A stretch of 64,000 bases of DNA. It comes from Pseudonocardia oceani. GTDB lineage: Bacteria > Actinomycetota > Actinomycetes > Mycobacteriales > Pseudonocardiaceae. How positions within the stretch are numbered: the stretch's first letter is position 1; every line of letters begins with the position of its first letter. The notes under the pieces are model-generated. The model saw nothing but the letters and a program-made list of their open reading frames with translations, made no database searches and was not told the DNA's origin. This document shows positions 56,679-64,000 of this stretch, in pieces. The DNA lies in NCBI RefSeq assembly GCF_019263585.2, contig NZ_JADQDF010000001.1:1798001-1862000 (forward strand), written 5' to 3'. The position numbers and the translations under genes were made by a program.

Positions 56679-57245
56679 TCAGGTCGGGACGGCGGTCCGG
56701 GCGAGCGCGTGCTGGACCAGCGCGACGAGCGTCGACCGGCCCGACCCGGGGTCGCGGGCGTCCAGCCACACCAGCGGGACGTCCGGGCCCAGGGCGAGCG
56801 CGTCGCGGACGTCCTCGGGCCGGTGCTCGTCGGCGCCGGGGAACCGGTTGACCCCCACGACGAACGGCAGCCGCCGGTTCTCGAAGTAGTCGATCGCCGC
56901 GAAGCAGTCGTCGATCCGGCGCAGGTCGACCAGCACCACCGCACCGACGCTGCCGCGGGCGAGCTCGTCCCACATGAACCAGAACCGCGACTGACCGGGC
57001 GTGCCGAACAGGTACAGGATCAGCGACGAGTCGACCGTGAGCCGGCCGAAGTCCATCGCCACGGTCGTCGTGCTCTTGTCCGGCACGAGGTCGGCGTCGT
57101 CGACGCCCACCGAGGCCGAGGTCATGGCCTGCTCGGTGAGCAGCGGCGGGATCTCCGACAACGTCCGCACCAGCGTCGTCTTGCCCACGCCGAACCCGCC
57201 GGCGACCAGCACCTTGAGCGGGATCAGCTCCTCATCGACCCGCAC
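56679..57245 (-). CDS. cvnD: Conservon GTPase-like protein CvnD
   Basis: A 188-residue ATP/GTP-binding protein, the Ras-like member of the actinobacterial conservon. P-loop: KVLVAGGFGVGKTTLVRTLS; effector-like region EQAMTSASVGVDDADLVP; DxxG-type LFGTPGQSRFWFMWDELARG; NKxD-like VVGVNRFPGADEH. It would hydrolyse GTP and relay the CvnA kinase signal. Start at 57245 overlaps the cvnC stop by 14 bases. It ends the cvnA-B-C-D operon and converges with accE. Confidence 0.93.
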   Translation of the reverse strand: MRVDEELIPLKVLVAGGFGVGKTTLVRTLSEIPPLLTEQAMTSASVGVDDADLVPDKSTTTVAMDFGRLTVDSSLILYLFGTPGQSRFWFMWDELARGSVGAVVLVDLRRIDDCFAAIDYFENRRLPFVVGVNRFPGADEHRPEDVRDALALGPDVPLVWLDARDPGSGRSTLVALVQHALARTAVPT

Positions 57246-57588
57246 GGAGTCCCTCCAGCAGTCGTTCCAGCACGGCGGGCGACGGGCCGTCCTCGCCCGA
57301 GGGCGGCAGGTGGATCACGAGGTGGCCGGCATCGACGAGGTCGCTGACGACGACGCGCGCCACCCCGACCGGCACCCCGAGCGCGGCCCCGACCTCGGCG
57401 ACCGACACCGGCCGCGCGGCCAGCTCCACCGTCGTGCGGTACTCCGGCTCCATCCCGTGCGACGAGGCGTCGGCGGTGGCCGTCACCAGCGCCTCCACGG
57501 GCAGGTCCCGGCCCGGGAGCGAGCGGGTGCGGCCGCGGGTGAGCGCGTAGACCGGCACCACCCGCCCGCCGGAACGGTGCTCGCTCAC
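57232..57588 (-). CDS. cvnC: Conservon DUF742 protein CvnC
   Basis: A 118-residue DUF742 protein of the conservon. A winged-helix-like region (RTTVELAARPVSVAEVGAAL then GVPVGVARVVVSDLVDAGHL) forms its core, with a proline-flanked N-terminus (VVPVYALTRGRTRSLPGRDL). CvnC links CvnB and CvnD in conservon complexes in Streptomyces. GTG 57588 is preceded by GAGGAGGGC. A 90-base gap separates it from cvnB, which contains a GTGAGC/GCTCAC hairpin (57644-57665). Confidence 0.9.
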   Translation of the reverse strand: MSEHRSGGRVVPVYALTRGRTRSLPGRDLPVEALVTATADASSHGMEPEYRTTVELAARPVSVAEVGAALGVPVGVARVVVSDLVDAGHLVIHLPPSGEDGPSPAVLERLLEGLRAGR

Positions 57589-57678
57589 GAGCCCTCCTCG
57601 CTCACGCTCGTCAGCCGCGTTCGCGACCGCTGCTGCGCCCATGGTGAGCTGGCAAGCTCGCTCACGCTTCCCGCCCGC

Positions 57679-58071
57679 TCACGTCGCGGTCGCCGTGCGC
57701 GCGGCCGGTGTCAGCGCGTGGCCGACCCGGGCGGCGAGCAGCGTCATCTCGTAGCCGACCAGCCCGATGTCGCACTGCCGGTCGGCGAACACCGCGAGGG
57801 TGGCACCGTGGCTGATCGCGGTGACGAACAGGTAGCCGCCCGCCATCTCCAGGATCGTCTGCGTGACCGGCCCTGCCGACAGCAGCTGCGCGGTGCCCCG
57901 GGCCAGGCTCACCAGGCCCGACGCCGCCGCGGCGAGCTGGTCGGCCAGCGACGTCCCGACCTGTGACGACGTCGCGAGCCGCAGCCCGTCGCCGGAGACG
58001 ACGACGCCGTGCACGACGCCGGGCGTGCCGCCGACGAACTCCTCCAGCAACCAGTCCAGCCGACCGCTCAC
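57679..58071 (-). CDS. cvnB: Conservon roadblock/LC7 protein CvnB
   Basis: A 130-residue roadblock/LC7 domain protein. LDWLLEEFVGGTPGVVHGVV, then LATSSQVGTSLADQLAAAASG and ILEMAGGYLFVTAISHGATL match the family; roadblock proteins act as GTPase regulators or scaffolds in conservons. GTG 58071 overlaps the end of the kinase frame as GTGA, so it is translationally coupled to the second half of cvnA. Confidence 0.92.
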   Translation of the reverse strand: MSGRLDWLLEEFVGGTPGVVHGVVVSGDGLRLATSSQVGTSLADQLAAAASGLVSLARGTAQLLSAGPVTQTILEMAGGYLFVTAISHGATLAVFADRQCDIGLVGYEMTLLAARVGHALTPAARTATAT

Positions 58072-59222
58072 GTCACTCCCCCGTTGTCGACGGTGTACTG
58101 CGCCGCACTGCGGCTGGCCTGGTAGCGCGACAGCGCGCTCGCGGCCGCGCTGTCGTGCACGGGCGCGGCCGGCTCGGCGCTCACGGGCCCGCGCAGCTCC
58201 GGCGCCAGGTGCGCCTGCGGCACGCGCCGGCGGAGTCCGCCGCGCGCGGGCTGGACCGGCACCGACGGCCCCGTGTCCCCGGGCCGCGGGTCCGGCACCG
58301 CCGGCGCGGAGGCGGGCCACCCGCCGCCGGACGGGGCCGGCGGCGTGGCCGCGAACGGCGCAGACCCGAACGGCGCAGACCCGAACGGCGCGGACCCGAA
58401 CGGCGCGGACCCGAACGGCGCGGACTCGGATGATGCGGGCGGGGCCGCCGCGCGCGGGTCGGCGCCGAACGGGTCGGCGGGCCCGTCCGCCTCCGGGCTC
58501 CACCAGCCGCGCCACTCGCCGTCCTCCGGGCCGGGGGCGGCCGGGGCGAAGGGCGTCGGCCAGGGGGTGGACGTCCCGGAGGCCGCGACCGGTACCCGCT
58601 CCGGGGCAGGAGCAGGAGCCGGGCCGGGCTCCGGGGCGCGCTCGGCCGGCACCGGCCGCACGGGCTCCGGGGACGGGAACGGGGACGGGGACGGGGACGG
58701 GGACGCGCCCAGGGAGTGCCGCGAGGGGGTGAGGTCCCCCGGGGCGCGGCGGGGCAGCGGGACGGCGGGGCCCACCGGGAACAGGGCGGCGGGCAGCGCC
58801 ACGACCGCGGTGACGCCGGAACCGGGCGTGGCCCCGAGCGAGACGCCGACGCCGTGCCGGGCGGCCAGCCGCGCGACCACGTGGAAGCCCAGCCGCTGGG
58901 CGACGGCGAGGTCCACGTCCTGCGGGCGGGCGAGCAGGTCGTTGGCGGCGGCCAGGTCCTCCGGCGGCATCCCCACGCCCCAGTCCTCGACCGTCATCAG
59001 GCACGCGCCCTCGTGGCGGGGGTCGGGGCGGGCGCGGACGGTGACCGTGGTGTCGGGCGGGGAGAAGCGCACGGCGTTCTCGGTCAGCTCGGCGAGCAGG
59101 TGCGTGAGATCGGCGACGACGCGCCCGGAGACGGCACCCACGCGGTCGTCGATCACCGTCGTGACCCGGTCGAGGTCCTCGGTCTCGGCGATGGCGGCCC
59201 GCGCGACGTCGCGCAGCGGCAC
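58068..59222 (-). CDS. cvnA: Conservon kinase CvnA, C-terminal (ATPase plus tail) half after an in-frame TAG
   Basis: The frame continues the N-terminal kinase piece (59244-60107) beyond a TAG at 59244-59246. It holds the HATPase domain (DLTHLLAELTENAVRFSPPD; VEDWGVGMPPEDLAAANDLL; QRLGFHVVARLAARHGVGVS) and a Pro-rich tail of about 230 residues. If made separately it could start at GTG 59222 (PLRDVARAAIAETED), with 384 residues. The tail contains five GSAPF units encoded by a 15-bp minisatellite. Alternatives are readthrough of the TAG, sequencing error, or a pseudogene. Confidence 0.8.
   Translation of the reverse strand: MPLRDVARAAIAETEDLDRVTTVIDDRVGAVSGRVVADLTHLLAELTENAVRFSPPDTTVTVRARPDPRHEGACLMTVEDWGVGMPPEDLAAANDLLARPQDVDLAVAQRLGFHVVARLAARHGVGVSLGATPGSGVTAVVALPAALFPVGPAVPLPRRAPGDLTPSRHSLGASPSPSPSPFPSPEPVRPVPAERAPEPGPAPAPAPERVPVAASGTSTPWPTPFAPAAPGPEDGEWRGWWSPEADGPADPFGADPRAAAPPASSESAPFGSAPFGSAPFGSAPFGSAPFAATPPAPSGGGWPASAPAVPDPRPGDTGPSVPVQPARGGLRRRVPQAHLAPELRGPVSAEPAAPVHDSAAASALSRYQASRSAAQYTVDNGGVT
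58352..58426. repeat. 15-bp minisatellite (five units) in the kinase tail
   Basis: Five units of CGAACGGCGCAGACC or CGAACGGCGCGGACC start at 58352, 58367, 58382, 58397 and 58412 and encode GSAPF repeats. A hexamer GGACGG run at 58672-58703 encodes Ser-Pro repeats in the same protein. Both are prone to copy-number change. Confidence 0.85.
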
Positions 59223-59243
59223 GGGGGCCGACCACGTGCGCGG

Positions 59244-60107
59244 CTACTGCTCGCCGGCCAGCACCAGCAGGCTCTCCGCGTTGCGCCGGACGCGGGTGGC
59301 CAGGTGGTCGAGGGTGAACAGGTCCGCGAGGGCGTCGGGGTCCTGCTCCTTCTCCTCGAGCTGGTTGATGATGTCGAGCTGCCGGTAGAGCATGCTCTGG
59401 TTGCGCCGCGCCAGGTTGACGAGCATGTCCGAGGCGAAGCGGCGCCTGCCGATCTCGGCGTCGGCCGTGACCAGCTGCCTGCCCAGCGCCTCCTTCTCGG
59501 CCTGCTCGTCCTCGGTGATCCGCCAGAAGATCACCATGCCGACGCACGCGGCGAGCACCCCGAGGCCGTGGATCCCCGACCACAGCCACGGGTTCGCCTG
59601 CCCCGCCGGGTGGGCGAAGATCAGGTCGCCGAGCCAGATCGTGCCGATCCCGTGGCTCAGGACGGTGAAGGCCACGTTCCACAGGAACGGCACCCAGTCC
59701 TGGTAGAGCGCGATGAAGCCGATGATGATGAAGAAGTGGAAGTGCGCCTCGATGCTGCCCGAGGTGAGCACGACCAGCGCCGCGGAGCAGAACACCAGCC
59801 CGCCGGTGACGAAGAACGACGCGAGCCGGCGCTGCGTCACCACGACGCCCATCACCAGGCCCAGCACCGGCCCGACCAGGGACGCGCCGATGAGCAGGGG
59901 CGGGTCGCCCAGCGCGAAGCCCAGCAGCGCGAGCGCGGGGAGGTGCAGGGCCAGCGTCCACTGCAGCAGGCGGTGGCGGCGGTGCCAGGCCCGGTCGTCG
60001 AGGGTGTTGCCGCGAGGCAGGTAGTGCCACAGGCGGCCGGCCGTCCCGGGGGCGGGGCCGTCCTCGGTCTCTCCCGCTGCGGGGTCGACGGATGTGTCCA
60101 CGCTCAT
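59244..60107 (-). CDS. cvnA: Conservon kinase CvnA, N-terminal membrane sensor half ending at TAG
   Basis: A 287-residue piece: six membrane helices (about 45-220: LALHLPALALLGFALG; GASLVGPVLGLVMGVVVT; GSIEAHFHFFIIIGFIALYQ; IHGLGVLAACVGMVIFW), with several His (HFHFF) in helices, then the dimerisation region RRFASDMLVNLARRNQSML and LDHLATRVRRNAESLLVLAG. It ends at TAG directly where the ATPase domain should follow. In conservons the parts form a single protein, here 680 codons from 60107 to 58068. ATG 60107. The HFHFF-type membrane sensor suggests a metal or heme-like ligand (inference). Confidence 0.85.
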   Translation of the reverse strand: MSVDTSVDPAAGETEDGPAPGTAGRLWHYLPRGNTLDDRAWHRRHRLLQWTLALHLPALALLGFALGDPPLLIGASLVGPVLGLVMGVVVTQRRLASFFVTGGLVFCSAALVVLTSGSIEAHFHFFIIIGFIALYQDWVPFLWNVAFTVLSHGIGTIWLGDLIFAHPAGQANPWLWSGIHGLGVLAACVGMVIFWRITEDEQAEKEALGRQLVTADAEIGRRRFASDMLVNLARRNQSMLYRQLDIINQLEEKEQDPDALADLFTLDHLATRVRRNAESLLVLAGEQ

Positions 60108-60554
60108 CGCACTGTCCCCTCCGGCGGCCACGGGGCGGACGCCACTGCTCCAGGCCGCGCACCGTACGTGGTCGTCCCGACGCAGCCCGGCACTGCGCGA
60201 GCGCCGCGGACACTTCGGAGCAACCGTTCGGCGCGCAGACGCAGCGAACGGACGTACGACGACGAGCGAACGGCGTACAACGGCGGCGCGGGTCTCGACA
60301 AGCGGGCAGGTACCGCACGTCCGGCGCCGCGGACGGCACGCCGGGCGCCCCGGACACCCCCGGACCGCCTCCCTCCGCGGACCAACGTCCGCTGCTCCAT
60401 TCAGCCCTGTGGATTCCGCTGTCGGTGCGACGAGCACCGCAGGACCGGTACGCCGGGTGCCCGAAGGGCTGCTCACGACCGGCGCCGCGGCGGCCGGACG
60501 GGGGCGGCTGACCCGCCCGGCCGCGACCGCCGCCCGGCCGTAGGGTCCGGCGTC
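60108..60554. other. 447-base gap upstream of the conservon and of maf
   Basis: No gene is evident. An inverted repeat CCGTTCG (60224-60230)/CGAACGG (60244-60250) and a direct repeat GCGAACGGACGTAC (60243-60256) and GCGAACGGCGTAC (60265-60277) lie about 120-170 bases upstream of the kinase start, and are plausible operators for the conservon operon. The rest shows only GC-rich sequence. Confidence 0.5.
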
Positions 60555-61188: not shown

Positions 61189-62097
61189 ATGGCTCTGCAG
61201 AACGACACCGACCCGAAGCTGGCCGAGTACGCGCACCCCGACCGCCTGGTCACCACGGCGTGGCTGGCCGACAACCTGGGCGCCGACGGCCTCGTCGTCG
61301 TCGAGTCCGACGAGGACGTCCTCCTCTACGACACCGGCCACATCCCGGGGGCCGTGAAGGTCGACTGGCACACCGAGCTCAACGACCCGGTCACCCGCGA
61401 CTACGTCGACGGCGCGCGCTTCGCCGAGATCTGCGGCGAGCGCGGCATCACCCGCGACACCACGGTCGTGTTCTACGGCGACCGCAACAACTGGTGGGCC
61501 ACCTACGCCCTGTGGGTGTTCAGCCTCTTCGGCCACGCCGACGTCCGCATCCTCGACGGCGGGCGCGCCAAGTGGGCGGCCGAGGGCCGCGAGATGACCA
61601 CCGAGCAGCCCGAGCCCGAGGCCGTCGCATACCCGGTCGTGGAGCGCGACGACGCCGCGATCCGCGCGTTCAAGGACGACGTGCTCGCGCACCTGGGGCT
61701 CGTGTCGTCTGGCGAGGGGGCCCTGGTCGACGTCCGCAGCCCGGGCGAGTACTCCGGCGAGCTGCTGCACATGCCCGACTACCCCCAGGAGGGCGCCGTC
61801 CGCGGCGGCCACATCCCCGGCGCGGCGAGCGTGCCGTGGGCCCGCGCGGCCGCCGAGGACGCCACGTTCCGCTCCCGCGCGGAGCTCGAGGCGATCTACC
61901 TGGAGGAGCAGGGCCTGAAGGCCGACGACGACGTCGTCGCCTACTGCCGCATCGGCGAGCGCTCCAGCCACACCTGGTTCGTGCTCACGCACCTGCTGGG
62001 CTTCGACAAGGTCCGCAACTACGACGGCAGCTGGACCGAGTGGGGCAACGCCGTGCGCGTGCCGATCGTGCAGGGCAGCGAGCGGGGCTCGGCGTGA
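61189..62097 (+). CDS. sseA: Thiosulfate sulfurtransferase (two rhodanese domains)
   Basis: Transfers sulfane sulfur from thiosulfate or 3-mercaptopyruvate to acceptors. The 302-residue protein has two rhodanese domains: a first with [20 protein letters not shown] and a second catalytic one with Cys in [20 protein letters not shown], plus the [14 protein letters not shown] cleft. The ATG at 61189 follows maf closely. It overlaps sufE by 4 bases (GTGA), an arrangement seen in mycobacteria, linking it with sulfur delivery. Confidence 0.95.
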
Positions 62098-62525
62098 GCC
62101 TGCCTCCGCAGCTGGAGGAGCTCGTCGAGGACTTCTCCGGCGTCGGTCCCAAGGACCGCCTGCAGCTGCTCCTGGAGCTCTCCCGCGAGCTCCCGGAGCT
62201 GCCCGAGCGGTACGCCGACGCGGCCGATTCGATGGAGCAGGTGCACGAGTGCCAGTCGCCGCTGTTCCTCGCCGTCGAGGTCGACGACGACGCCGACCGG
62301 CGCGTGCACCTGTTCTTCTCCGCGCCGCCCGAGGCGCCGACCACGCGCGGGTTCGCCTCGATCATGCACACGGGGATGGACGGGGAGCCGGCGGAAGCCG
62401 TGCTCGCCGTGCCCGACGACTTCTACACCGCGCTCGGGCTCGCCCAGGCCGTGAGCCCGCTGCGGCTGCGCGGCATGGCCGCGATGCTGTCGCGGATCAA
62501 GAAGCAGGTGCGCGCGGCCGTCTGA
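62094..62525 (+). CDS. SufE-family sulfur acceptor protein
   Basis: A 143-residue SufE fold protein, with the acceptor Cys in [19 protein letters not shown] and the C-terminal [20 protein letters not shown]. It should accept persulfide sulfur from a desulfurase and pass it on. It overlaps sseA by GTGA, so sulfur may move between the two. Corresponds to Rv3284. It ends 105 bases before the TIGR04222-type gene. Confidence 0.93.
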
Positions 62526-62630
62526 GGCTCTCCTGCGGCCACCTCAAGTTCTGGTGAAGAACGTTCCCCGGGACGGTGTCCGTCGCAACACTGTGAGGCG
62601 TCTCATGAGGACGTCTTCAGGAGGTGCGCG

Positions 62631-63515
62631 ATGGACACCTGGGGAATCAGCGGCCCCACCTTCCTCACCGGCTACGTGCTCCTGGCCGCGGTGGTGTGGG
62701 TCGCGGTCGCGCGGCAGCGCCGCGCGCTCGCCGAGGGGTCACCTCGTACCGTCCACGACCTGGGCGGACACGAGGTGGCCCACCTCAACGGCGGGCCCGA
62801 ACTGGCCGTCACCTCCGCGCTGACGTCCATGCACCTGCGCGGCACGATCGCGCCGGCCAAGGGCCTGGTCCACGCGGTGGGCCGGCCCGAGCCCGGTGCG
62901 CACCCGCTCGAGCGGGCCATCCACTTCACCTGCGGCAGCCCCGTACCGCGCGCCCGACTGCCGCTGCACCGTCCGGTCCGCACCGCGCTGGACGGCATCC
63001 ACGACCGCCTCGTCGCCCAGGGCCTGCTGCTCCCGGAGCCCCGCCGCCGCGAGATCCGCGCGGCCGGTTGGTGGCTCGGTGCAGTCGCGCTGCTGGGTCT
63101 GCTGCGCCTGCTCGCCGGCGTCGCCGAGAGCCGGCCCGTCGGGCACCTCGTCGCGGTGCTGCTGCTCGTCTGCGTGGTCACGGCCGTGCTGCTGGTCCGG
63201 GCGCCGCGGCGCTCCCGCGCCGGTGACGAGCTCCTGGTGCGCCTGCAGACCGAGCACGACGCGCTGCGGCCGGACTCCCGGCCCGACTGGGTCGCCTACG
63301 GCCCGGCCACCGCCGCGCTCGGCGTCGGCATCTTCGGGGCGAGCGCCGTGTGGGCGTCCGACCCGGCCTTCGCCGAGGAGCTCGCCGTCCAGAAGGTCAC
63401 GTCGTCCGGCGGAGGTGACGGCGGCGCCTCGTCCTCCCTCGGGGGCGGCGACGGCGGCGGTGGGGGCGGCGACGGCGGGGGCGGCGGAGGGTGCGGCGGT
63501 GGCTGCGGCGGCTGA
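62631..63515 (+). CDS. TIGR04222-type membrane protein with Gly/Cys tail
   Basis: A 294-residue protein with an N-terminal helix (about 10-28), two close helices (about 146-188, GWWLGAVALLGLLRLLAGVA; VGHLVAVLLLVCVVTAVLLV), and a C-terminal hydrophobic segment near 225-250, followed by an extraordinary tail of Gly, Asp and Ser ending GGGGGGCGGGCGG (Cys288, Cys292). The N-terminal TIGR04222-type domain (ERAIHFTCGS; LHRPVRTALDGIHDRL) is recognised from memory. A strong AGGAGG site (62619-62624) precedes ATG 62631. The 3' end overlaps a DUF692 gene by 17 bases. The tail may be the substrate for that enzyme (inference). Confidence 0.85.
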   Translation: MDTWGISGPTFLTGYVLLAAVVWVAVARQRRALAEGSPRTVHDLGGHEVAHLNGGPELAVTSALTSMHLRGTIAPAKGLVHAVGRPEPGAHPLERAIHFTCGSPVPRARLPLHRPVRTALDGIHDRLVAQGLLLPEPRRREIRAAGWWLGAVALLGLLRLLAGVAESRPVGHLVAVLLLVCVVTAVLLVRAPRRSRAGDELLVRLQTEHDALRPDSRPDWVAYGPATAALGVGIFGASAVWASDPAFAEELAVQKVTSSGGGDGGASSSLGGGDGGGGGGDGGGGGGCGGGCGG

Positions 63516-64000
63516 CGCCTGCACCGTCCCGGGGCTCGCCGGTCTGGGCATCGGCTGGCGGTCCGGGATCGCCGGCGTGGTGGATGACGTCGACGGCCTC
63601 GGCTTCACCGAGGTCGTCGCCGAGTCCCTCGTTCCCGCAGATCCGCCTCGAGGGGTGGCGGCTCTGCGGGAGCGGGGGGTGACCGTCGTGCCGCACGGGG
63701 TGCGGCTCTCCCTCGGCGGCACCGACCCGCTCGACGCCGCCCGCGTCACGCACCTCGCGGCCTGCGCGGCCGGCGTCGGGGCGCCGCTGGTGAGCGAGCA
63801 CGTCGCGTTCGTCCGGGCGGGCGGGCGCTACGCCGGGCACCTGCTGCCGCTCCCCCGCTCCCGCGACGCGCTCGACGTCCTCGCCGCCAACGTGGCGCGC
63901 ACGCAGGCCGAGCTCGACGTCCCGCTGGCGCTGGAGCCGATCGCCGCCCTGCTCGACTGGCCCGACGACGCGATGACCGAGGGCGAGTTCCTCACCGAGC
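63499..64000 (+). CDS. DUF692/MNIO-family enzyme (cut by the window edge)
   Basis: The first 167 codons of a DUF692 (multinuclear non-heme iron oxidative enzyme family) TIM-barrel protein. After the GTG at 63499 the chain reads LAGLGIGWRSGIAGVVDDVD, then VVPHGVRLSLGG (His65 motif), SEHVAFVRAGGRYAGHLLPL (Glu99-His100) and PLALEPIAALLDWP (Glu145). Family members such as MbnB and TglH bind iron at such His/Glu positions and modify cysteine residues of peptides. The start overlaps the tail of the TIGR04222-type gene by 17 bases in another frame, so the two must be co-translated. The C-terminal half lies outside the window. Confidence 0.9.
   Translation, partial: MAAAADACTVPGLAGLGIGWRSGIAGVVDDVDGLGFTEVVAESLVPADPPRGVAALRERGVTVVPHGVRLSLGGTDPLDAARVTHLAACAAGVGAPLVSEHVAFVRAGGRYAGHLLPLPRSRDALDVLAANVARTQAELDVPLALEPIAALLDWPDDAMTEGEFLTE

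Follow-up and report, generated by a model that had tools for sequence, protein, structure and literature searches.

Subsets of the TIGR04222 membrane proteins have been proposed as substrates of adjoining MNIO (DUF692) enzymes (Antoine et al., 2025, PMC12452194), a computed proposal in which PME-type 2 partners occur in at least 10% of the TIGR04222-MNIO clusters, many clusters apparently have no partner, and one third of the TIGR04222 genomes carry no MNIO. In the accessible part of that paper, tail cysteines are not cross-counted with the presence of an MNIO and no experiment addresses the TIGR04222 family, and our own search of titles and abstract openings, with most subscription journals outside it, found no experiment on the TIGR04222-MNIO family. 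Here we analyzed a window of 64,000 nucleotides from Pseudonocardia oceani (contig NZ_JADQDF010000001.1, positions 1,798,001 to 1,862,000), near the 3′ end of which a TIGR04222 gene overlaps an MNIO gene followed by a partner gene. The cassette is a member of this already published, computed kind; what is added here is the constancy of the partner, the co-variation of tail cysteines with MNIO presence, the joint losses of MNIO and partner, and the regular spacing of the cysteines. Judging from sequence comparison, the three genes form a set in which the MNIO and its partner likely oxidize cysteines in the Gly-rich tail of the TIGR04222 protein.

The TIGR04222 gene (62631..63515 of the window, forward strand, as are all features below unless stated) has an AGGAGG ribosome-binding site (62619..62624) ahead of its ATG and encodes a membrane protein of 294 residues, the likely substrate, which matches TIGR04222 (NCBIfam, near_uncomplex) at 141.2 bits against a curated cut-off of 43. 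It contains Cys at positions 101, 181, 288 and 292, the last two of which (codons 63492..63494 and 63504..63506) lie within a C-terminal Gly/Ser/Asp/Cys tail (residues 261-294, 63411..63512) that is predicted to be disordered (pLDDT 43-52). The MNIO gene (292 residues, 63499..64377, in the window to 64000; L002:6500-7378) begins with a predicted GTG inside the coding sequence of this tail, overlapping the TIGR04222 gene (stop codon 63513-63515) by 17 bases, and a possible ribosome-binding site, GGAGGG (63486..63491), ends 7 bases 5′ of that GTG. The full MNIO matches PF05114 at 257.6 bits against a Pfam gathering score of 25. Both structural statements of an earlier sequence-only reading, namely a TIGR04222 protein with two cysteines in its tail and a DUF692 gene starting within that tail, are thereby confirmed. 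Directly 3′ of the MNIO, and overlapping it by 4 bases, an open reading frame beyond the window end (64374-64793; L002:7375-7794) encodes the partner, a small helical DUF2063-like protein of 139 residues.

The first line of evidence comes from comparing tails between genomes with and without an MNIO. A tail was called Gly-rich if Gly, Ser, Asp and Cys made up at least 60% of its last 35 residues. Tails were taken from 150 genomes of the bacterial family of P. oceani (150 listed TIGR04222 matches, minus one fragment plus three more) and from a sample of 394 genomes of its class, where we used all 25 matches (E up to 1e-10) found in the 24 genomes that lack an MNIO, plus 18 copies (15 regions) chosen from MNIO-bearing genomes, two of them in G651 and counted apart. 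Among the matches listed, at least one Cys is present in 139 of the 141 Gly-rich tails from MNIO-bearing genomes versus 5 of the 15 from MNIO-lacking genomes, the figures without the Gly-rich filter being 149/163 and 10/30; Fisher's p of 1e-10 for this association assumes independent proteins, an assumption that does not apply here. The tail cysteines, which the sequence-only reading took for the residues possibly modified, are conserved in this family. Three of the five Cys-bearing tails from MNIO-lacking genomes come from a genome with an MNIO remnant next door (G104), a 480-contig assembly (G096) and a gene near a contig end (G511); in G475 the Cys stand in a VCELAGDC stretch ahead of the Gly run, and the G602 tail is Ser/Cys-rich with no Gly run. 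G651 carries, as its sole MNIO, another, high-scoring kind (366 bits), and its Gly tail has no Cys. Since Gly-rich tails nearly always contain Cys where an MNIO is present and mostly contain none where it is absent, we read the tail as what the MNIO probably modifies. As a separate observation, the TIGR04222 proteins at L155, L156, L171, L173, L178 and L183, whose genomes have no MNIO of the TIGR04222-linked type, share a Cys pair (LCxFAxxC-like) immediately ahead of a Gly tail that itself has no Cys.

Gene order provides the second line. In the family sample, TIGR04222 occurs in 88 genomes (82 over the cut-off) and MNIO in 79, and a same-strand TIGR04222 gene, among the matches listed, lies no more than 2.7 kb upstream in at least 78 of 93 MNIO rows, in line with the adjacency of the two genes expected from the window. 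These 78 rows represent 76 loci, as three rows are pieces of one gene, and 75 of the loci are intact. With a first profile the partner is seen behind the MNIO at 66 of the 75, and with a second-round profile made from the first-profile hits at all 75. Of the remaining 15 MNIO rows, ten belong to other kinds of MNIO, seven of them scoring above 300 bits, and a partner was found at none of these ten. The other five are of the TIGR04222-linked kind, all with a partner: G135 has an unlisted TIGR04222 gene directly upstream, G127 and G130 lie at contig breaks, G126:C7 is a remnant, and the fifth is in G031. At this last locus (L115, G031:C50) the start of the TIGR04222 gene continues in frame directly as MNIO and the partner comes next, as if a deletion had fused the two genes and taken out the body of the substrate. 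The partner shares the reading frame of the MNIO in G126:C19, in L249 and in seven Streptomyces-like genomes (L134-L140). A search of named genomes, in which the nearest relatives were Pseudonocardia and some loci belonged to the same genomes as the family set, gave a similar picture: among the best 80 of 127 relatives, 73 have a downstream MNIO and 70 of those a partner, the three without it being two truncated MNIOs and one contig end, while the seven without an MNIO are four losses and three contig ends. In the class sample, 78 genomes hold both TIGR04222 and MNIO, 24 TIGR04222 only, 16 MNIO only and 276 neither. Given the constant partner and the co-variation of tail Cys with MNIO, the substrate reading is therefore likely.

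Some loci depart from the simple three-gene layout. Three to four tandem TIGR04222 genes precede one MNIO at L015, L016, L024, L030, L043 and L261, and some of these arrays (e.g., L016) include a Cys-free copy with a Trp/Asp-rich end. At L080 (G050:C1, a two-contig genome) the MNIO is spread over three frames beside a tail with one Cys, and may be a pseudogene or a sequencing error.

The observations that limit this reading come from the Streptomyces-like group, from two loss loci and from the trees. The label “Streptomyces-like” (group g53) was assigned from gene neighbors, and in all seven genomes examined the partner domain is fused to the MNIO. Five of them have a nearby TIGR04222 protein, whose tail is Cys-rich in L136 and has no Cys in the other four (L137-L140); three of these four genomes encode a second TIGR04222 protein elsewhere with one Cys in its Gly-rich end (L149-L151). 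The other two of the seven, G172 and G342, have an MNIO and no TIGR04222 match genome-wide at E up to 0.001, which slightly lowered our confidence. The enzyme/substrate proposal of the sequence-only reading is supported by gene order, by the partner found beyond 64000 and by the co-variation, while the Streptomyces-like data limit it for that group. These same data, together with the Cys-free paralogues of the tandem arrays, are what one would expect if the TIGR04222 protein were a membrane helper or exporter of an MNIO system acting on some other protein, its tail Cys being plain thiols. This is the best surviving of the alternatives but still unlikely, because in the window nothing lies between the overlapping tail and MNIO genes, and because Gly tails in MNIO-less genomes mostly have no Cys, though other small ORFs with Cys were not systematically searched for.

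Two side observations concern this group. The fused MNIO-partner genes of L137-L140 lie near genes resembling hemQ, and the Pfam label of the partner names SCO6045, which would itself be an MNIO-partner fusion. In the accessible text of one study, SCO6045 is among the genes about 3-fold up in Streptomyces coelicolor wild type under H2O2 (PMC4991794).

Natural losses within Pseudonocardia allow a closer comparison. The site is fixed in the order SufE, TIGR04222, MNIO, partner and carboxylase alpha subunit, with SufE at 31/31 and the carboxylase subunit at 27/31 of the loci counted, and at six syntenic loci MNIO and partner have been lost together, wholly or to fragments. The number of Cys in the last 40 residues is zero in P. 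acidicola, P. nigra and sp. MH-G8 and one in the metagenome-assembled genome (MAG) 40_S54, whereas P. asaccharolytica and MAG-71 keep three each; the MAG-71 tail is the same as that of G104. Two of the six losses come from MAGs, in which missing genes may reflect the assembly. The 24 intact loci have 0-5 tail Cys, with 2-5 in 22 of them, among which P. dioxanivorans CB1190 has five; the two tails below that belong to the final copy of a tandem array in P. spinosispora and to sp. CNS-139, where the tail is apparently out of frame. Loss and intact loci differ in a one-sided Mann-Whitney test (p 0.017, all 30 loci). The Pseudonocardia tree needs five changes, of which supported branches force one, and does not permit a formal test; similarly, in a tree of 105 rows, with each MNIO-bearing family genome represented by a single copy, five changes, two of them forced by supported branches, are required for the 11 rows that have neither MNIO nor Cys, leaving too few independent pairs for a test. 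Such underpowered tree-based tests and the two Cys-keeping loss loci leave some room for a second alternative, in which the Cys tail binds metal or forms disulfides unmodified, and MNIO and tail are co-inherited indirectly, for example through shared lineage. We regard it as improbable, somewhat more so than the helper or exporter, since the overlapping genes, the partner at every intact locus examined and the fusions point to a working enzyme, and four of the six losses left no more than one tail Cys at an otherwise conserved site.

The tails also follow a pattern. In the last 45 residues of the 141 Gly-tailed homologues, C-x(2-8)-C accounts for 90% of the Cys spacings versus 46% after shuffling, Cys only 0-1 residues apart never occur versus 20% in shuffled tails, and Gly follows Cys in 79% of cases versus 46%. 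The median is four Cys in the last 50 residues, regularly spaced with x5 the commonest spacing, and the most frequent position of the last Cys is two residues from the end (66/139). A third alternative, in which the tail is low-complexity coding drift with GGC (Gly) and AGC (Ser) codons turning into TGC (Cys) without function, could draw on the varying tail length and the GGC-rich tail of the window, but is highly improbable given a Cys spacing and a Gly-after-Cys preference far from those of shuffled tails, and given that Cys is absent from 10 of the 15 Gly tails found in MNIO-lacking relatives.

How the tail might be presented depends on the membrane topology. The AlphaFold2 model (pLDDT 83) shows a folded domain at residues 46-133 (62766..63029; helix-helix-strand-strand, then helices; pLDDT 93-98), helices at 136-164 and 171-189, and the disordered tail. 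The charge pattern places residues 28-145 inside, and the positive flanks of the soluble domain suggest that it is cytosolic. Three segments are clearly hydrophobic, and a fourth is marginal with a mean hydropathy of 1.25 (116 homologues). A fourth membrane segment, if real, would place the tail outside. Because only 45 of 124 TIGR04222 proteins of the family show this segment clearly, both an outside and an inside tail are possible; the models in the accessible part of PMC12452194 have it outside. For the “membrane-displayed” tail of the sequence-only reading, display is not established because the last membrane segment is weak.

H66, H101, E146, D179, N182, H210, H226 and E254 of the MNIO are each at least 97% conserved among 78 MNIOs and align with residues of 3BWW or MbnB that we take to be the metal site. 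The partner profile aligns with DUF2063 at 2.2e-4 in hhalign, versus 0.23-0.7 for three controls run with the same profile. The window's own partner protein has no Pfam match and thus no Pfam DUF2063 signature; 12 of 120 partner proteins match DUF2063 weakly and 11 match GH3_N_vert. A fold search placed MbnC (7dz9_C) weakly among the nearest structures, with NGO1945 (3dee) and TglI (8hi7) not listed. The sequence-only reading had suggested looking beyond 64000 for a RiPP-recognition or export partner; the one found there is DUF2063-like, short, and has no RRE-like part in its model.

If the substrate reading is right, the partner would be a helical DUF2063-type domain without the leader-binding (RRE) part, and because that part is missing, either the folded domain of the substrate or its membrane portion may bring the tail to the MNIO. 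The gene overlap could couple synthesis, such that the tail would be modified in the cytosol during its making. The product may be a Cys-derived heterocycle such as thiooxazole, with a role at the membrane in handling metal, perhaps copper, or in redox processes, both chemistry and role being suggested by the enzyme family. A more far-reaching and only tentative idea is that an intact membrane protein is modified instead of a leader-guided peptide, with the soluble domain of the substrate replacing the RRE absent from the short partner, and that the regularly spaced Gly-Cys tail becomes a membrane-anchored, metal-binding array of Cys-derived heterocycles, a tethered counterpart of bufferins across Actinomycetes. 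The constancy of the partner and the co-variation narrow two questions that the published proposal left open, namely which TIGR04222 proteins serve as substrates and whether they have partners. The locus also offers a concrete test system, in which the three genes are short, the tail is defined and a single genus supplies natural loss strains. Should the substrate reading prove right, MNIO chemistry would reach beyond small precursors to membrane proteins throughout Actinomycetes.

Upstream of the cassette lie a rhodanese-type sulfurtransferase (61189..62097; PF00581, 110 bits) and a SufE-like protein (62094..62525; PF02657, 107 bits). In the accessible text of PMC5183585, a bacteriocin cluster from Pseudonocardia is said to include a TIGR04222 peptide together with a sulfur transferase. 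Our locus counts suggest synteny: the SufE-like gene marks the syntenic site in Pseudonocardia, where every named locus counted has it, but it occurs at only 6 of the 76 family TIGR04222-MNIO loci, and the rhodanese-type gene, also at 6/76, all in the genus of the window, is probably outside the cassette. Farther upstream, at 56679-60400 on the reverse strand, a GTPase and small regulator-like, Roadblock-like and sensor-kinase-like proteins stand in a row, which from their translations we presume to resemble an actinobacterial conservon.

Among known systems, one likeness is to the DUF2207 (YciQ-like) membrane proteins, whose C-terminal domain is weakly matched by 79 of 116 TIGR04222 homologues (best 9.5e-5), with weak matches also to DUF3040 (44) and DUF6611 (27). 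DUF2207 proteins are longer, and two long frames with weak TIGR04222 matches that we took as DUF2207 relatives (L152, L153) end in Gly tails without Cys. MbnB/MbnC of methanobactin likewise combine an MNIO with a helical partner, MbnC being the weak fold neighbor noted above, but the gene next to the MNIO here encodes a membrane protein and no MbnA-like peptide, and the window MNIO scores 38 bits against an MbnB cut-off of 325. The bufferin enzymes BufB/BufC are similar in that an MNIO and a DUF2063-type partner act on a Cys-bearing precursor, giving Cys-derived thiooxazoles there (PMC12452194, accessible part). They differ in that the substrate here would be a membrane protein of 294 residues, which has no Pfam match to the bufferin precursor signature DUF2282 at E up to 0.1, in that the BufC-type partner is DUF2063-RRE versus a short partner with no RRE-like part in its model, and in the MNIO itself (184.3 bits against a BufB model cut-off of 310). 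The clusters of Antoine et al. (2025), as far as the accessible part of the paper describes them, share the C-terminal Gly/Ser tail with Cys on a membrane protein, the adjoining MNIO and the PME-type 2 partners; the difference lies in the partner, reported for at least 10% of the clusters there and present at every intact family locus examined here.
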